From contig CACDPP010000002.1 in the NCBI GenBank assembly GCA_902554705.1, forward strand, positions 1 to 64,000: a stretch of 64,000 bases of DNA, in the 5' to 3' direction. Shown piece after piece: positions 37,884 through 45,336 of the stretch. Positions within the stretch are counted from its first letter, which is position 1. The number at the start of each line of letters is the position of its first letter. This DNA is from Paracoccaceae bacterium. GTDB taxonomy: Bacteria; Pseudomonadota; Alphaproteobacteria; Rhodobacterales; Rhodobacteraceae. The notes under the pieces are model-generated. The model did no database searches. It had not been told where the DNA came from and saw only the letters and a list, made by a program, of their open reading frames with translations. Both the position numbers and the translations under genes were made by a program.

Positions 37884-38054
37884 AGTAATTCTCCACATCA
37901 AAAACTTGTAGCAAATTCAACAGTCAAAACTTATCTTTAATAGCTAAATTCTATCAAATTTATCTGCAATACTTTTTTCAAACTGACGCTTATGTTTGAA
38001 ATTTCCATTCTTTTCATTCAGTTTGTCTTTGGAAGTTTTAACAATAGAAAATTA

Positions 38055-39269
38055 ATGAGCGATCAAATCCAAGATAGTCCAGAAATCTCTGGTATTCGAT
38101 TTGCAATGTACGTATTGCCTTTCGCAATTTCCCAAACACTTGCTTGGGCGACATGCTTTTATTCGTTCCCTGCCTTTTTACCAATATGGGAAACCCAATT
38201 AGGTTTTTCTAAAACCTCACTGACTGGAGCATATACTTTATCACTTTTTGTGGCTGCAATTTTCGCGCCTTTTGTGGGGCGATTTATCGACAAAGGTTCT
38301 GGAAGCTTAGTATTTTCTTTTGGCACTATTCTAGCGTTTTCTTGTCTCTTCTCACTGTCTAAAGCAACTGAGATTTGGCATTTTTATTTTCTATGGTTTT
38401 TCATGGGTATAGCGATGTCTTGCTCTCTTTATGAAGCATGCTTTGCTTTTTTAACGACTACTATGGCGAATAATGCAAGAAGAGCGATAACTTTTGTAAC
38501 GTTGGCTGCTGGCTTTGGGGGCACAATTTCTTTTTCCGGCGCTCATTTTTTAACTCAGTTTTTTGGTTGGAGATCAGCAGTACTAGTTTTTTCTTTAGTA
38601 ATTTTGTTCGTGAACCTACCCTTAGTTTGGAGCGCAACAAAAATGTTAAACAAATTTTCTAAGGGGTTTGTTAAACAGTCTTCTAGAAATTTAAAAGATG
38701 CTCTATCTGTGATGAAAAAACCAATTTTTTGGCTTATTGGCGGCACTTTTGCGTTCATGTCATTCAATCACGGGATGATAATAAGTCATCTTCTACCAAT
38801 TTTTTATGACAGGGGCCTTGATGCTAAAACAGCTGTTCTAGCAGCCTCCTGCATTGGGCCAATGCAAGTTATAGGTCGTTTGATGATGCTTGCATCCGAG
38901 AAAAAAGTTTCTGTATTATCGCTTTGTTGTTTGTCTTTTATTTCAATGTTCGTTGCTGGTTGGTCAATCTTTTTGGGAAACCTTTCTCTTGGTTTAATAA
39001 TAGCGTTTGTTGTTTTTCAAGGAGCAAGCTATGGCGTTTTGAGTATTATTCGCCCTACTGTGATCTCAGGTCTTCTTGGTCGCAATGACTTCGGAATTAT
39101 CTCTGGACTGTTGGCCGTTGGGTTTGTTCTAGGATCTGCTTTAGCTCCTTTATTTGGATCATTAGTTTGGCAGTTGGGTAGCTATGATCTAGTAATATTT
39201 GTGGCGTTGCTGTTGCCCGCTTTTTCTTTAGTTTTAATGATCGCTGCCTGGCGTCTTAAGCCGCAATAG
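38055..39269 (+). CDS. Major facilitator superfamily transporter
   Basis: A 404-residue, 12-helix MFS protein from ATG 38055. The in-frame ATG at 37992 would add 21 residues of unusual sequence and has no ribosome binding site. The loop between helices 2 and 3 carries GRFIDKGSG. Substrate unknown; the family includes monocarboxylate-type and resistance carriers. It is divergent from the HD-domain gene. Confidence 0.82.
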   Translation: MSDQIQDSPEISGIRFAMYVLPFAISQTLAWATCFYSFPAFLPIWETQLGFSKTSLTGAYTLSLFVAAIFAPFVGRFIDKGSGSLVFSFGTILAFSCLFSLSKATEIWHFYFLWFFMGIAMSCSLYEACFAFLTTTMANNARRAITFVTLAAGFGGTISFSGAHFLTQFFGWRSAVLVFSLVILFVNLPLVWSATKMLNKFSKGFVKQSSRNLKDALSVMKKPIFWLIGGTFAFMSFNHGMIISHLLPIFYDRGLDAKTAVLAASCIGPMQVIGRLMMLASEKKVSVLSLCCLSFISMFVAGWSIFLGNLSLGLIIAFVVFQGASYGVLSIIRPTVISGLLGRNDFGIISGLLAVGFVLGSALAPLFGSLVWQLGSYDLVIFVALLLPAFSLVLMIAAWRLKPQ

Positions 39270-39343
39270 CCAAATTATGAATTTTCAATGAAAATACTCT
39301 AAACAGGGTTTGCCTCTTTTTATTGTTCTAGTATTTAAACATT

Positions 39344-39997
39344 ATGAAAGCTTTTGTTTCTGAATTTATGGGTACGCTTTTTCTTGTTGCTACGGTAGTC
39401 GGTTCTGGAATTATGGCTGAAAACCTTTCAATGGGAAATCAGGCTTTGGCGCTTTTGGCTAATGCCATTGCCACAGGTGCTATTCTGTATGTTTTGATTA
39501 CAATATTTAATGAAATATCTGGCGCTCACTTTAACCCGGTTGTTAGTTTAATAATGTTTGCTATGAAAAAGCTCAGCTTTTCAGAGTTTTTGGCATATGT
39601 ATCTGTTCAAATAATTGGGGGAGTACTAGGTACGTTTTTAGCCCATTTCATGTTTGAGATATCAATTATTCAGTTTTCGACAAACGTTCGCACAGGGTCT
39701 TCTCAATATTTTTCAGAAGTCATAGCTGCTTTTGGATTACTGCTAACTATTTTACTTGGGTCGAAACAAAAAACAGGTTCCGTCGCTACTTTGGTCGCAT
39801 TTTATATTACTGCAGCCTACTGGTTTACTTCTTCAACTAGCTTTGCCAATCCGGCTGTTACTATTGCAAGAACATTAACTGATACTTTCTCTGGTATCCA
39901 ACATGGCGATACTATTCCATTTATAATGGCGCAAATTATTGGTGGTTTACTTGCATATCTGGTATTTATGTACCTAAGTCAGTCCAAAAGAATTTGA
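39344..39997 (+). CDS. Aquaporin/MIP-family channel
   Basis: A 217-residue six-helix channel. The two pore motifs are NPV (AHFNPVVSL) and NPA (FANPAVTIAR), with the conserved Arg after the second. N-terminal SEFMGTLFLVATVVGSGIMAE resembles bacterial aquaporins of the AqpS/glycerol-facilitator type found in some arsenic operons. No arsenic gene is adjacent (arsJ is 33 kb away), so solute specificity is not assigned. Confidence 0.85.
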   Translation: MKAFVSEFMGTLFLVATVVGSGIMAENLSMGNQALALLANAIATGAILYVLITIFNEISGAHFNPVVSLIMFAMKKLSFSEFLAYVSVQIIGGVLGTFLAHFMFEISIIQFSTNVRTGSSQYFSEVIAAFGLLLTILLGSKQKTGSVATLVAFYITAAYWFTSSTSFANPAVTIARTLTDTFSGIQHGDTIPFIMAQIIGGLLAYLVFMYLSQSKRI

Positions 39998-40062
39998 AAA
40001 ATCACTGTGAGATTGAGTCAGGAAAAATAAACTCAAGTGTTTAAAGAGGGCCACTATTAAAA

Positions 40063-40848
40063 ATGTCGAATGAAGTTTTGTATAACAATCAAGTAATCTC
40101 TTTTTTGGAAGAGCTATGGGGAGACGGATTTTTATCACCTGGAGGTTCCGATGAAGTTAAGAAAGTGCTCGAAGGTATAAAAATCAAAGATCAACGAGTT
40201 TTGGATATTGGTTCGGGATCCGGGGCTTGTGCAGTTCTATTGGCAAAAAATTATTTGGCGAAGCAAGTAGTGGGAATTGATGTTGAGCCACCTGTTTGTG
40301 ACGCTGCTCGAAATCATGTGTTAGCAGCAGGTTTATCAGAAAAAATTAGTATTGAACTTGTTTCTCCGGGGCAATTGCCTTTTGAAGACGGTTCTTTTGA
40401 AGTTGTGTTTTCTAAGGACTCAATTATCCACATTCCAGATAAGTCTGCTTTAGCCTCAGATGTTTTTAGAGTTTTGAAACCGGGTGGTCAGTTTGCGGCA
40501 TCAGACTGGTTAATAAGCCATGATGGAAAGCCATCGCCTGAAATGTCTGAATATATAAAAGCTGAAGGTCTTGACTTTGCTATGGCTTCACCGGGCGAAT
40601 ACCAGAAAGCATTAGTTACAGCAGGATTTGTTGAAATAGAGCTAGTAAATAGAAACCCTTGGTATTCTAAGGTCGCAGCTAAAGAACTGGAATGGCTAAA
40701 AGGTCCAGACAGACAAGATTTAGCCAAACGTCATGGGAAAGAGTTTATTGATCACCAAATTGAAATCTGGATGAAACTAGTTGGAGTTCTAAAAAGTGGA
40801 GAACATTGCCCACATCATATCCGAGCAAAAAAACCTTTAGATAGTTAA
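40063..40848 (+). CDS. Class I SAM-dependent methyltransferase
   Basis: A 261-residue methyltransferase with motif I VLDIGSGSGACAVLLA, motif II VVGIDVEP and the post-II segment VLKPGGQFAASDW. The N-terminal WGDGFLSPGG is shared with phosphoethanolamine N-methyltransferase-like enzymes. The paired-cysteine pattern of ArsM is not seen. The acceptor is unknown. Confidence 0.8.
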   Translation: MSNEVLYNNQVISFLEELWGDGFLSPGGSDEVKKVLEGIKIKDQRVLDIGSGSGACAVLLAKNYLAKQVVGIDVEPPVCDAARNHVLAAGLSEKISIELVSPGQLPFEDGSFEVVFSKDSIIHIPDKSALASDVFRVLKPGGQFAASDWLISHDGKPSPEMSEYIKAEGLDFAMASPGEYQKALVTAGFVEIELVNRNPWYSKVAAKELEWLKGPDRQDLAKRHGKEFIDHQIEIWMKLVGVLKSGEHCPHHIRAKKPLDS

Positions 40849-40853
40849 CTAAT

Positions 40854-41564
40854 TTATTTACTGGCTTTCTTAAATTTAAATGATTTAGATGCTGGCGATA
40901 AGTTTATTTCATCGATTATCGTTCCCTGCCGGGTTCCTAAAAAATCAAATACAATCTTTGCAATATCTTCTGTTTCGATGGCATTGGTTTCAAGTCCATC
41001 TGGTTCGAACCCCAATTTATCAAAGAATGGACTTCTGACCATTCCAGGATTTATTAAGCAAACACGAACTCCCGCAGGTCCTGCTTCATTTCTAAGTGCT
41101 TGTGCAAATCCCCTCAAACCAAATTTAGCAGCGGAATACAGTGTTGCTTTCTTTTTGCCTATCACCCCAGCCTCTGATCCGAGTATAAAAATGTCTCCAT
41201 TCCCTCGCGATTTCATATGAGCCACAATTGCTCGGCATAAGACGATATGTGAGACAAGATTAAGATTTATAAAGTTTTCAATCTGAAGACTGGAAAAGTT
41301 TTCTAATGATTTGAAGTCTCCGTAACCAGCTCCACTTAAAAAGACGTCAATATCTGGATTTTCCTTAAGGATAGATTTAATTAATTCTGGAAGTTTTTTG
41401 ACTTTAGATAAGTCGGCTTCTATCGGGATATAATTTTTTTCATCTGGCTTGAATTTACTATGGTCTCTGGCTAGACCAATTACCCTAATTCCACTTTCCA
41501 AAAACTTTTCTGATATTGACTTGCCAATCCCACTGGAACTTCCAGATATTAATGCGGCTTTCAT
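40854..41564 (-). CDS. Short-chain dehydrogenase/reductase
   Basis: A 236-residue SDR with the NAD(P) motif SGSSSGIGKS (residues 7-16), SGAGYGD in the NNAG position and active site Y-x-x-x-K in YSAAKFG. INPGMVRSPFF follows. The Ser16/Arg-type pattern after the glycine motif does not decide between NAD and NADP. It is convergent with the methyltransferase and lies just downstream of the SPL-like gene in the same direction (21-base gap), so it may be read with that unit. Confidence 0.85.
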   Translation of the reverse strand: MKAALISGSSSGIGKSISEKFLESGIRVIGLARDHSKFKPDEKNYIPIEADLSKVKKLPELIKSILKENPDIDVFLSGAGYGDFKSLENFSSLQIENFINLNLVSHIVLCRAIVAHMKSRGNGDIFILGSEAGVIGKKKATLYSAAKFGLRGFAQALRNEAGPAGVRVCLINPGMVRSPFFDKLGFEPDGLETNAIETEDIAKIVFDFLGTRQGTIIDEINLSPASKSFKFKKASK

Positions 41565-41585: not shown

Positions 41586-42578
41586 TTATATGGTGCACTG
41601 AAAAATTTTATTTTCTGATATGTAATTATTTAATTCAGATTTTAAGAAATCATGCATTTGTGTTTCAATCTTTGTCCCATAAGACACCACCCCGTTTGTT
41701 TCTTCCATCGGAAAAGCAAAAAGTTTGTGTTCTGGATGAAGACTAGCTGCTTTTTTATACATTTTTTTTGGGAATCTAAGTGGGCCATAACTTATTGAAT
41801 GTATCCTTTCTGGATCTAGGCCATTCATTATATCAGCGAAAAGAGCGGAATAGAGTTCTTTCCAATCAGAGGTATATATGAGTGGATCAAATCTGAGGCC
41901 TATTTTCCAACCGGCATCCGCAAGTTGTTTAATAGCACTAATTCGTCTGTTTATACTTGGTGCCTTACTGTCCAGAGACTTAGCAACTTGGGCTGGAGAT
42001 AAGCTAAAAGCAGCGACACAGTTGGATAGAGGTTCTCTTTGAAGAAGTGAACCAATTGCAATACTTTTAGTTCGTAATTCAAGCTCAACATTAGAAAGCC
42101 CGTTGAAAAAATTTAAAGCTTGATTGGCAAAGCCACTTAATTTGTCGAAGGCTAAAGAGTCACAATCATAGCCAGAAAAAAATGTAAGCGATTGGCCTTT
42201 ATATTTTTTAATTTTTTCAGAAATTGATCTGAAGAAATCTTCATAATTTACGAATAATACAAAATTAGCCGAAGAGTACATTCCTTGTAGAAAGCAATAT
42301 TTACAATCATAAAGACAGTTATACATGTGGGAAAAATAAAAATTTTTGTGGGAATCCATTCCGAAACCTGAAGGCACTGGCAAGACAAAATTGTCGTATT
42401 TTTTAGCCAATATGAGTGCTGGATTTTTTTTCTGCAATTTGAAGTTTTGATGCCGCTTATTGAATAATTCTTGATAACGATCTATTGGAACCCAACCCGC
42501 TCTGGGAAGAGCTCTCCGGATGCGCTCCGTTGTTGGGTGCTCATAAATTTCTTCCTCGAAAAAAATCGTTTCAATCAA
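41586..42578 (-). CDS. Spore photoproduct lyase-like radical SAM protein
   Basis: A 330-residue radical SAM protein. The cluster cysteines are Cys88, Cys92 and Cys95 in NCLYDCKYCFLQG, with the C-x3-C-x2-C spacing. KLSGFANQALNF, GWKIGLRFDPLIY and a final QCTI are similar to the spore photoproduct lyase family. By eye, the position of the catalytic H-donor Cys141 of Bacillus SPL is Tyr137 here, with a Cys two residues later (Cys139). TTG 42578 is chosen because it forms a TTGA overlap with the nucleosidase stop and has AGAGGA at 42591-42596; TTG 42590 is an alternative. No sporulation genes are present, so DNA repair is only one possibility. Confidence 0.82.
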   Translation of the reverse strand: MIETIFFEEEIYEHPTTERIRRALPRAGWVPIDRYQELFNKRHQNFKLQKKNPALILAKKYDNFVLPVPSGFGMDSHKNFYFSHMYNCLYDCKYCFLQGMYSSANFVLFVNYEDFFRSISEKIKKYKGQSLTFFSGYDCDSLAFDKLSGFANQALNFFNGLSNVELELRTKSIAIGSLLQREPLSNCVAAFSLSPAQVAKSLDSKAPSINRRISAIKQLADAGWKIGLRFDPLIYTSDWKELYSALFADIMNGLDPERIHSISYGPLRFPKKMYKKAASLHPEHKLFAFPMEETNGVVSYGTKIETQMHDFLKSELNNYISENKIFQCTI

Positions 42579-43444
42579 AGCGCATTCCAATCCTCTACAT
42601 TGAGCAAAACTTCTTTCTCTAACCTTAATATTATCTCCTTTGGCTGAGAATTTAAAAACTCAGATAAGTCCAGCCTTTTTGAAGGGAAAGCAACTTTCCA
42701 CTTTCTATAGATTTCTCGAAATTTATACTTGTTGGTCTCGGTGAATTTAAATCTTTTTTCAAACTCTATAACTTCATTTGGGATTGAAAGACGTTTCTTT
42801 TCTTCCTCTACCAATATCTCAATTTCGGCTAAAATATCTGAGATTTTTGATAATTGTTTTTCTATCAATTCTCGAACTAAATGCTTTGTAATCAAAGATG
42901 AAGAAGCACTTGGTGTATCAGAAACAATCTTAATCACGTAGGTAAGCTCATTGCACGAAAAAGATGGAGCCATTTCACAGAAACCAGCAGCTTCCATATC
43001 ATATAATACTTTCTCCTTGTATCCATTTTCTGGCTTGCTGACTGTAAATAAAATTGCTGCCGGTATTAGTTTGGAAAGTCTTAATCCTGGAAAAAAGGCG
43101 GCTCCACTTTCTTTTGAGACTACTTTATTAGCTTGATATATATCTCCTATTGGGCCCTTGAAAAACCCAGCTATTCCAAAATTAATCCAAGCTGAGTGGT
43201 CATTAATTTTTAAATGGTTCTTTAAAAATGTTGCGGCGGCTGCTGATTTTATCGATCCCATACCGGATATAACAAGAGCATGCCCTTTCTCTTCATTAGC
43301 GTAAATTGGGAAAAGAGATTTATTTTCCACAATTTTCATATTGAAGGCATCTATTAATGGTGTGGCTTCTGCTCGAAGTGCAGTTACCCAGCAAAATTTA
43401 AACTGAAGCTCCGTATTATTCTCAACATCAGTAAATTCACTCAT
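42575..43444 (-). CDS. Nucleosidase/nucleoside phosphorylase-like protein
   Basis: A 289-residue protein. The N-terminal ~185 residues resemble the MTA/SAH nucleosidase and purine phosphorylase fold: CWVTALRAEATPL, INFGIAGFFKGPIGD, the ribose-binding YDMEAAGFCE and the active-site Asp in KIVSDTPS. The C-terminal ~100 residues are charged and helical and match nothing I know. ATG 43444 overlaps the glycosyltransferase stop by 8 bases, and its stop overlaps the SPL-like start. Nucleoside or nucleobase cleavage coupled to radical chemistry is a plausible theme. Confidence 0.75.
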   Translation of the reverse strand: MSEFTDVENNTELQFKFCWVTALRAEATPLIDAFNMKIVENKSLFPIYANEEKGHALVISGMGSIKSAAAATFLKNHLKINDHSAWINFGIAGFFKGPIGDIYQANKVVSKESGAAFFPGLRLSKLIPAAILFTVSKPENGYKEKVLYDMEAAGFCEMAPSFSCNELTYVIKIVSDTPSASSSLITKHLVRELIEKQLSKISDILAEIEILVEEEKKRLSIPNEVIEFEKRFKFTETNKYKFREIYRKWKVAFPSKRLDLSEFLNSQPKEIILRLEKEVLLNVEDWNAL

Positions 43445-44303
43445 TGTCCAATAAACTCTCAAAGTGAACTATTTTTTTATTGAGTTCATCTGTAAAATCT
43501 TTTTTGCCGCGTTTCATGGAGCCATTCATCAATATTTTAAGCTTTAAGATAAGTTCTGTTAGAGCAAGTTTGTATTTAGATCGACTTAAATTTTTATTTT
43601 TTAAAAGTTTTTCTAGACTGAAGATCCTAAATCTGTCCATTCCCCAGTACATTTGTGATAATTGATCTGAATGCCCACCATTTTTAATAGTTAGTTGTTC
43701 ATTTACAAAATGGGTCTGTTCAAAAGCACAATACCTTAACCAAAAATCATAGTCTTCGCATGCTTTTAAGCTTTCATCAAAACCTCCCAGGTCATTAAAA
43801 ACAGATTTGTGAATTAAAGCTGAGCTTGGCGATATGCAGCACATTTTCAGACATTTTTCAAAAAGGTCACCTCCATTTTTGCCGTGCTTTTTATGCTGGT
43901 TTACTCTGATCCCATTTCTTATCCAGATTTCGTTGGTATGGCTGACTCTACAAGAGAAGCTTTCTTTCTTTAGTGACGATAATTGTGCTTCTAATTTAGT
44001 GGGCTTCCACTGATCGTCAGAGTCCAACAAGGCTACATATTCTGAGGAAGATAATTCTATTCCAATATTTCTGGCAGAACTAACGCCACCATTTTCTTTA
44101 TAGATATATCGCAGGGATTTTTTTTGAGATTCAGATACTGAAAACCCTAAATTTTTCAGCACATCCCAAGTTTTATCATTCGATCCATCATCAACAACAA
44201 TAACTTCTTTGGGTTTAAACGTTTGCGACAGTACGGATGAGACACTTTCTTCTATCAAGTGTGCCCTATTGAAGGTTGGAATTATAACAGAAACGTTTGG
44301 CAT
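43437..44303 (-). CDS. Family 2 glycosyltransferase
   Basis: A 288-residue GT-A glycosyltransferase. SVIIPTFNRAHLIEESVSSVLSQT starts the fold, VVDDGSND and the DSDDQW motif bind the nucleotide sugar and metal, and CEDYDFWLRY supplies the acceptor-side acidic residues. ATG 44303 gives the normal MPNVSVIIPTF start; ATG 44339 would add an unlikely extension. It leads the overlapping operon with the nucleosidase-like and SPL-like genes. The acceptor is unknown. Confidence 0.85.
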   Translation of the reverse strand: MPNVSVIIPTFNRAHLIEESVSSVLSQTFKPKEVIVVDDGSNDKTWDVLKNLGFSVSESQKKSLRYIYKENGGVSSARNIGIELSSSEYVALLDSDDQWKPTKLEAQLSSLKKESFSCRVSHTNEIWIRNGIRVNQHKKHGKNGGDLFEKCLKMCCISPSSALIHKSVFNDLGGFDESLKACEDYDFWLRYCAFEQTHFVNEQLTIKNGGHSDQLSQMYWGMDRFRIFSLEKLLKNKNLSRSKYKLALTELILKLKILMNGSMKRGKKDFTDELNKKIVHFESLLDNE

Positions 44304-44412: not shown

Positions 44413-45336
44413 ATGAAACCACTAGCTTTTTCTAAGTCTGGAAAATTCTGGAGAGGGAACCTGCATAGTCACTCCAACCGCTCAGATGGGCTACTTTCAC
44501 CTGATGATCTATGTCAAAGATATAAAGATGAAGGCTATAATTTTTTAGTGATTTCAGATCATTTCGTCGGTTTGTATAATTATCCAGTTACTGAGCCTTC
44601 AGACTTTTATGATCCTGAATTTAGTACTATTTTAGGTGCTGAGCTTCATTCGGGATCTACAGAGAATGGAGAAATTTGGCATATACTTGCTGTGGGATTG
44701 CCAAAAGATTTTTCACCAACTAATTCTCCAGATTTTGTTCCTACTGATAATCAAGAGACTGGGCCAGAAATTGCCAAGCGGTGTGTTGAAGCCGGTGCTT
44801 TTGTAACAATAGCGCATCCTCAGTGGTCTGGGCTTACTTTGTCGGATGCCAGATCTATCAAGTCAGCCCATGCCGTTGAAGTTTATAATCATGGTTGTGC
44901 TGTAAGTACCGATCGTCCTGACGGGTTTCACACATTAGATCTTCTCTTAGCTGAAGGTCGTGACCTGAACCTCGTGGCGACGGATGATGCACATTTTACT
45001 GATCCTGACTACTTTGGGGGCTGGGTGATGGTGAAATCTAATGAAAACAGTCCTGACTCTATTTTGGAAGCTCTAAAAGAGGGCACCTTTTACTCATCAC
45101 AGGGACCTGATTTAGTAGACATTGAAATAGAAACTGGCTCAGTCGAGGTTCATTCGACACCAGTCAGTACGGTTATTATTCAAGGACAAGGCTCAGCTTA
45201 CGTTGCCCAACATGGTGAAGCGTTAGTTTCCACACAACTTTCACTAGACCATCTTAAAAAAAGTCCATGGTTAAGGGTAACCGTGATCGACCATAATGGG
45301 AAAAGGGCTTGGTCAAACCCTATATGGAGACATTGA
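44413..45336 (+). CDS. PHP-domain metal-dependent phosphoesterase
   Basis: A 307-residue PHP protein. Metal ligands are in NLHSHSNRSDG, VISDHF, GAELHSG, IAHPQW and ATDDAHF, the ordered set of the family (about residues 16-195). The C-terminal ~90 residues form an extra beta-rich domain. PHP enzymes hydrolyse phosphate esters; the substrate is unknown. GGAGGG lies about 8 bases before ATG 44413. It is divergent from the glycosyltransferase. Confidence 0.83.
   Translation: MKPLAFSKSGKFWRGNLHSHSNRSDGLLSPDDLCQRYKDEGYNFLVISDHFVGLYNYPVTEPSDFYDPEFSTILGAELHSGSTENGEIWHILAVGLPKDFSPTNSPDFVPTDNQETGPEIAKRCVEAGAFVTIAHPQWSGLTLSDARSIKSAHAVEVYNHGCAVSTDRPDGFHTLDLLLAEGRDLNLVATDDAHFTDPDYFGGWVMVKSNENSPDSILEALKEGTFYSSQGPDLVDIEIETGSVEVHSTPVSTVIIQGQGSAYVAQHGEALVSTQLSLDHLKKSPWLRVTVIDHNGKRAWSNPIWRH

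Follow-up and report, generated by a model that had tools for sequence, protein, structure and literature searches.

In the futalosine and hopanoid pathways a radical S-adenosylmethionine (SAM) enzyme adenosylates its substrate, and a nucleosidase of the phosphorylase fold acts after it. QueL, which acts in queuosine salvage, is a radical SAM enzyme as well, and the arsenosugar gene set comprises ArsM, ArsS, a nucleosidase and a glycosyltransferase (GT). Here we describe a locus on a 64,000-nucleotide stretch of DNA from a Paracoccaceae bacterium (contig CACDPP010000002.1, positions 1 to 64,000; hereafter the window), where three genes on the minus strand, at 41586-44303, encode in this order a GT, a nucleosidase-like protein (NUC) and a radical SAM protein related to spore photoproduct lyase (SPL). 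NUC and the SPL-like protein form a widespread pair that was apparently not described before; the titles and abstract starts of the papers found in literature searches, which were confined to open-licence PMC papers, name no such pair. We tentatively suggest that it is the core of a metabolic cassette.

Results

NUC and the SPL-like gene travel together

Among 101 relatives, 16 hold the SPL-like gene, and the same 16 hold NUC, adjacent in each. In a six-frame census NUC lies immediately upstream of the SPL-like gene at 52 of the 55 loci of a set that spans several phyla, at 54 of 54 loci of Clostridia and at 43 of 43 loci of Granulosicoccales. Scanning species genomes yielded the 55 loci, which belong to Alpha- and Gammaproteobacteria, Acidobacteria, Myxococcales, Opitutales, Planctomycetes and Clostridiales. 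The Clostridia set holds the 54 clear members out of 391 genomes drawn from one class. The Granulosicoccales set stands for an order in which 44 of 48 genomes hold the SPL-like gene, split across two contig ends in the 44th (G949). The three sets overlap partly; the last two draws were centred on genomes picked because they hold the gene (G513 and G511, respectively), and we infer the two group names from these centres.

In 5 of the 54 Clostridia NUC and the SPL-like protein share one reading frame, and the same fusion is found in a Fusobacterium vincentii record. This record (NZ_CP084075.1) is titled a plasmid and carries one annotated feature; its size of 2.1 Mb suggests a chromosome. The flanking enzymes are patchier. 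A GT gene precedes NUC at 37/55 loci, 0/54 in Clostridia (where short flanks of 1.5 kb at 30 loci make the absence less certain) and 13/43 in Granulosicoccales, while a short-chain dehydrogenase/reductase (SDR) gene follows the SPL-like gene at 29/55, 28/54 and 26/43 loci, respectively. Since GT and SDR are patchy and NUC is near-constant, the core of the system is NUC plus the SPL-like protein, with GT and SDR as optional members. A preliminary description of the locus had supposed that the products work together, which the linkage and the fusions strongly support, and had itself made this depend on linkage in other genomes; the counts above show the genes linked there.

Three of the 55 loci are without an adjacent NUC. 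In L067 the SPL-like gene stands at the contig start, in L041 no NUC was found within 754 bases upstream, and in L056 a NUC of 195 aa lies ~3 kb upstream. The N-terminal half of NUC is absent in three of the other 52 (L036, at a contig end, L043 and L044). Clustering of the open reading frames that flank the 55 loci gave no fifth gene widely shared across lineages, and a wider conserved neighbourhood was thus rejected. Genes resembling GlgC/GlgD glucose-1-phosphate adenylyltransferases were recognised by eye near the pair in several Clostridia (L152, L153, L154, L158 and L066).

The SPL-like gene is also carried by marine alphaproteobacteria, acidobacteria and planctomycetes, and human faecal scaffolds and the Fusobacterium record contain members as well. 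In a draw of 398 genomes from the phylum of the window, the window's own genome was the sole clear member, with five others at best E values of 3e-17 to 3e-12. A phage origin was considered and rejected: the viral collection gave 53 pattern matches and 0 confirmed relatives. Two unverified, unannotated faecal scaffolds labelled 'Bacteriophage sp.' (L098 and L099) hold SPL-like genes; their neighbours look bacterial by eye, and they may be mislabelled bacterial contigs.

The SPL-like protein forms a clade apart from SPL

The protein passes the Pfam model of SPL (PF20903, 74.3 bits, cut-off 27) and falls far short of the NCBIfam equivalog models TIGR04070 (94.3, cut-off 400) and TIGR03886 (66.2, cut-off 437.55); the general Pfam Radical_SAM model gives 13.6, below its cut-off of 29.5. 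SPL structures are the best matches of its AlphaFold2 model (pLDDT 90), at Z 34, and the next protein follows at Z 15.7. With this radical SAM fold and a CxxxCxxC motif it belongs to the radical SAM superfamily. The motif is kept in 54/54 Clostridia, 43/43 Granulosicoccales and 54/55 loci, the remaining row being without motif coverage. The relation to SPL, already noticed in the preliminary description, is thus borne out.

At the position of the H-donor Cys of SPL the family has Tyr. Y141 of the window protein aligns with this Cys in a profile alignment to 4k9r (C140 of the G. thermodenitrificans enzyme, with numbering counted from the cluster cysteines), and Tyr stands there in all rows (55/55, 54/54, 43/43 and 3/3, in overlapping sets). 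The Tyr and the Cys two residues on, both pointed out before, are indeed Y141 and C143 in the window. C143 is retained at 52/55 loci and in 43/43 Granulosicoccales; in Clostridia it occurs in 0/54, with Thr, Ser or Asn in its place, and it is therefore no family constant. The position of SPL Y99 is mixed within the family: Phe at 52/55 loci including the window (2 Tyr, 1 uncovered) and in 42/43 Granulosicoccales, Tyr in 41/54 Clostridia. All 20 SPL-side references have Tyr here, and in this the window protein departs from SPL.

According to a review of SPL, the mutants C141A and Y99F consume one SAM per turnover, and full regeneration of SAM is itself not firmly settled (PMC3742179). The C. 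acetobutylicum SPL is reported to use C74 instead of the usual Cys position (PMC5368176). Moreover, Cys occupies the H-donor column in just 4 of the 20 references and is missing from 16. Because of this column and the C. acetobutylicum enzyme, the loss of the Cys alone proves little about SPL function.

In a tree made by a quick method, with 110 family rows thinned to 59 and 20 references of our own choice from the SPL side, a single branch with SH-aLRT support of 100 separates the members from the references; L168 and L068 form long branches. Seven Clostridia (G534, G708, G716, G757, G776, G845 and G853) hold, besides a clear member, a second and much weaker match; with the search stopped at E 1e-30, this makes at least seven genomes. 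Four of the seven second proteins were placed in the tree, and they fall among the SPL references. A relative of SPL in a non-sporulator is not unusual: annotations as 'spore photoproduct lyase family protein' exist for Deinococcus, Aureimonas, Nostoc and others.

NUC has a nucleosidase core and an additional C-terminal domain

The model of NUC (pLDDT 91.8) matches structures of MTA/SAH nucleosidase (MTAN) and futalosine hydrolase at Z ~20-22 over residues ~20-220. The fold matches stop near residues 214-223 of 295, and the last ~75-80 residues are mostly helical in the model; sequence comparison with Pfam and PDB gave no match of weight for them. The preliminary description, which put this domain at ~100 residues, was right that it has no family recognised by sequence.

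NUC thus combines the MTAN/futalosine hydrolase fold with a Glu/Glu/Asp set, as E32, E157 and D182 are nearly invariant. From motif context and the usual numbering we take them to correspond to MTAN E12, E174 and D197, and in this fold such acids presumably fit a 5'-substituted adenosine. Their retention therefore indicates a 5'-modified adenosine, the type of compound that radical SAM enzymes make from SAM. All three acids are found in 134 of the 145 NUC rows of at least 20 bits, a count in which some genomes enter twice and the reduced NUCs of L098 and L167 fell below the limit. Six of the other 11 rows have gaps (L036, L043, L044, L114, L162 and L124), and five have substitutions, in three genomes (L068; L107 and L156; L112 and L161). 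The residue census omitted NUC matches below 30 bits, which left 51 of 54 Clostridia rows (L167, L221 and L226 dropped). Seven of these rows (L211, L212 and L215-L219) have a gap at E32 that looks like an effect of the alignment edge: the open reading frames of L212, L215 and L219, the three that were inspected, do show the Glu. The N-terminal start was marked as missing in six Clostridia NUCs, though only slightly in L212, L215 and L219, and the NUC of L233 (Granulosicoccales) is truncated by a contig end.

Fold and residues support the prediction that NUC has a nucleosidase-type activity of the MTAN/futalosine hydrolase kind. The futalosine hydrolase model touches 37 of 38 NUCs, and the window protein stays far below the NCBIfam equivalog cut-offs (fut_nucase 31.1 vs 124.7; PRK05584 22.2 vs 169). 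Of 26 cassette genomes, 25 have much stronger PNP_UDP_1 matches at other places, so an enzyme of this fold for general use is probably not missing from them.

Layout of the locus in the window

The features are collected in Table 1. With family-consistent starts, GT and NUC overlap by 8 bases (43437-43444) and NUC and the SPL-like gene by 4 (42575-42578), as reported before; the longest reading frames start elsewhere (TTG 42590, 43462, 44339). The 4-base overlap is the commonest arrangement in the 55-locus set (22 of 50 upstream NUCs) and in Granulosicoccales (8 of 20 loci). In 20 Clostridia loci it is not, and there the longest reading frames overlap by at least 29 bases among the values listed. 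The genome of the window is 1.85 Mb in 79 contigs and ~69% complete, and the loci closest to it carry the labels Rhodobacteraceae or Paracoccaceae. All genes of the three-gene unit first proposed are present; the SDR gene, 21 bases downstream of the SPL-like gene on the same strand, had been overlooked and recurs with the pair in many loci.

Table 1. Positions of the genes, motifs and reduced NUCs. Positions with an L label refer to the named locus, the others to the window.
Feature	Position	Strand	Remarks
SPL-like radical SAM protein	41586..42578	-	330 aa from family-consistent TTG at 42578
SPL-like protein, longest reading frame	start 42590	-	334 aa
CxxxCxxC [4Fe-4S] motif	42294..42317	-	C92/C96/C99, numbering of longest reading frame
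Y141-D142-C143-D144	42159..42170	-	Y141 at H-donor Cys of SPL (C140 Gt / C141 Bs)
NUC, MTAN/futalosine hydrolase fold and C-terminal domain	42575..43444	-	289 aa from ATG at 43444
NUC, longest reading frame	start 43462	-	295 aa
NUC C-terminal helical domain	42578..42817	-	residues ~216-295; no sequence match of weight
Family 2 GT, optional member	43437..44303	-	ATG at 44303; PF00535 2.1e-34
SDR, optional member	40854..41564	-	PF00106 3.1e-38
MFS transporter, aquaporin, methyltransferase	37992..40848	+	beside the cassette
CehA/McbA-type PHP metallohydrolase	44413..45336		92.5 vs domain cut-off 80; divergent from GT
Reduced NUCs, Granulosicoccaceae	L043:1129-1791, L044:7342-8004		
Reduced NUCs, Clostridia	L167:6661-7194		also L221, L226
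Reduced NUC, faecal scaffold	L098:9478-9960		

Of the 55 loci, only the six nearest have the genes for the MFS transporter, aquaporin and methyltransferase together with the cassette, and the metallohydrolase gene is present in the same six. The better NCBIfam matches of the methyltransferase include arsenite methyltransferases, below cut-off.

Discussion

Linkage, fusion, fold, residues and the separate clade are the calculated part of the case. A nucleosidase of the adenosine type that is tied to a radical SAM enzyme most plausibly acts on the product of this enzyme. We therefore lean, with less than even confidence, to a conserved metabolic cassette, in which the SPL-like enzyme adenosylates an acceptor, NUC deadenylates the product and SDR and GT tailor it, and which does not serve DNA repair.

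Step 1: The SPL-like enzyme would cleave SAM to the 5'-deoxyadenosyl radical and join the radical to an acceptor molecule, with the formation of a 5'-adenosyl product.

Step 2: NUC would remove adenine from this product, leaving a 5-substituted ribose. Fold and residues point to the type of activity, and the adenosyl product is the presumed substrate.

Step 3: Where the optional members are present, the SDR might oxidise or reduce the freed sugar or adduct, and the GT might glycosylate it.

The earlier idea, in which a modified nucleoside is synthesised and subsequently glycosylated, comes partly near to this scheme; the residues suggest, however, that the substrate of NUC is an adenosine which the radical enzyme has produced, and many loci have no GT. 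A more specific form, which we hold somewhat unlikely as a whole, is a two-component builder on the SPL fold: NUC would dock to the SPL-like enzyme via its C-terminal domain and Y-P-D loop, radical adenosylation would follow, and NUC would then strip the adenine. If true, this would be a further, separately evolved combination of radical adenosylation and deadenylation across several bacterial phyla. If the adenosylation cassette is the right reading, naming these proteins after SPL would mislead, a fold known from repair would have been put to use in synthesis, and undiscovered metabolites of one group would exist in bacteria of the sea and the gut. A cassette common across many bacteria presumably does something that many use, and the strict pairing makes its function testable with two proteins.

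Several observations weigh against the adenosylation cassette. Six loci hold a gutted NUC of 160-220 aa, with the nucleosidase core lost, beside an intact SPL-like gene, and in L068, L107 and L112 one or two of the MTAN-type acids are absent; adenine removal by NUC is therefore not always needed. Profiles find the C-terminal domain in 5 of the 6 gutted NUCs, and the loop N-x-I ... Y-P-D ... P-F or a variant of it was detected with a profile in L098, L167 and L226, while L043, L044 and L221 show variants of it on visual inspection. This retention, together with the incomplete acids of L068, L107 and L112, suggests that the SPL-like enzyme needs NUC for more than nucleosidase activity. Conversely, L061 and L056 have NUCs of 195 aa without the C-terminal domain, the genome of L061 (G082) showing three stops inside the NUC match. 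The gutted NUCs fit no simple scheme. Furthermore, GT and SDR are frequently absent from the loci; the Y99 position is Tyr in most Clostridia, so that a loss of SAM regeneration cannot characterise the family; in fold, the SPL-like enzyme resembles many other radical SAM enzymes at least as much as it does MqnE (Z 13.6); and co-location cannot separate an adduct from free 5'-deoxyadenosine.

The last point leads to the foremost competitor, which we nevertheless consider unlikely: NUC would be a dedicated clearer of 5'-deoxyadenosine, an inhibitory by-product of some other radical change by the SPL-like enzyme that uses SAM stoichiometrically. The MTAN-type acids of NUC agree with this, and the loss of some NUC cores would be expected if another nucleosidase substitutes, yet the six gutted NUCs weigh against clearance as they do against adenosylation. 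To our knowledge, by-product removal is not usually the task of a partner that is fused or almost always adjacent. The marine branch has Phe at the Y99 position, where the Y99F change in SPL is reported to stop SAM regeneration (PMC3742179). On the other side, the stronger PNP_UDP_1 proteins of 25/26 genomes may make a dedicated enzyme unneeded, and clearance leaves SDR and GT without explanation. We prefer adenosylation to clearance because of the near-strict pairing, the fusions, these PNP_UDP_1 proteins and the tailoring enzymes. Distinctly less probable is that NUC serves chiefly as a subunit for structure or substrate presentation, whose C-terminal domain and loop help complete the active site of the SPL-like enzyme, with nucleosidase chemistry secondary. 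The fusions would suit such a role, as would the six gutted NUCs beside intact SPL-like genes, five with the domain and all with the loop. It is opposed by the acids kept in 134/145 NUC rows, by the NUC of L056 standing ~3 kb away, and by that of L061, which adjoins the SPL-like gene without a C-terminal domain (with the stops in G082 as a reservation); because of L061 we rate both this role and the two-component builder slightly lower.

We regard two readings built on base or lesion chemistry as very unlikely. In a salvage like that of QueK/QueL, NUC would free a base from a modified nucleoside and the SPL-like enzyme would then cleave a C-C bond in the base. The reaction of SPL is itself the cleavage of a C-C bond on a base, Clostridia and Fusobacterium have members of the family, and a nucleosidase followed by queuine lyase is a known order in queuosine salvage, but QueK is of another nucleosidase family, IPR023186 (both from PMC11130926). 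Reading nine loci by eye revealed no TGT, though no search was aimed at it. NUC also carries the Asp that we take to mark adenine-type members of its fold. Least probable of all is the repair of spore photoproduct or another DNA photo-lesion, although the SPL fold at Z 34, SPL-family proteins in other non-sporulators and the existence of SPLs with no Cys at the H-donor position all speak for it. The family forms a separate clade with support of 100, the tie to a nucleosidase is near-strict, Tyr is invariant at the H-donor position, seven Clostridia hold an additional SPL-side protein, and members are known from human faecal scaffolds and from Fusobacterium, where UV is no obvious pressure. DNA-photoproduct repair by the SPL-like protein is thus unlikely, and 'DNA or nucleotide photo-damage repair', as first proposed, is not supported in view of the clade, the invariant Tyr, the second proteins of Clostridia and the faecal and Fusobacterium members.

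How, then, does the adenosylation cassette compare with known systems? With SPL (SplB; 4fhc, 4rh0 and 4k9r) the SPL-like protein shares the whole fold (4rh0: Z 34.0, rmsd 2.3, 319 aligned residues, 17% identity), the CxxxCxxC motif, the Tyr of Bs Y97 (Y98 here) and Asp144. Unlike SPL, its family has an invariant Tyr for the H-donor Cys, a separate clade and a NUC partner, and the window protein has Phe for Bs Y99 and lies far under the TIGR04070 and TIGR03886 cut-offs. NUC is similar to MtnN and MqnB in its core fold (Z ~20-22) and in three corresponding acids; it differs in its low identity to them (14-22% among the rows listed), its scores under the NCBIfam cut-offs, the extra C-terminal domain, the SPL-like partner and the gutted forms in some loci.

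The arsenosugar gene set has a similar mix of enzyme classes. We rejected it as a match: the window GT reaches 56.9 bits against TIGR04283 (cut-off 182), with two other GTs at 64.5 and 76.6, and the methyltransferase, aquaporin and MFS genes are confined to the six nearest loci. QueK/QueL likewise unites a nucleosidase with an enzyme acting on the base. Membership was rejected, as NUC has the phosphorylase/MTAN fold and QueK belongs to IPR023186 (PMC11130926), and the system is kept as an analogy.

HpnH/HpnG and MqnE/MqnB would share with the cassette the same presumed logic of adenosylation and deadenylation, and differ in that the radical SAM enzyme here is of SPL type. The HpnG model touches 2 of 38 NUCs only, at a best E of 0.0035. 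Squalene-hopene cyclase had no match in the genome of the window and was found in 1/16 and 5/24 cassette genomes or records, many of them incomplete; with this caution a hopanoid side chain was rejected for most genomes, and hopene is an unlikely acceptor. The best reading, by analogy, is that the pair of NUC and SPL-like protein may vary the known logic of a radical SAM enzyme followed by a nucleosidase, here built on the SPL fold.

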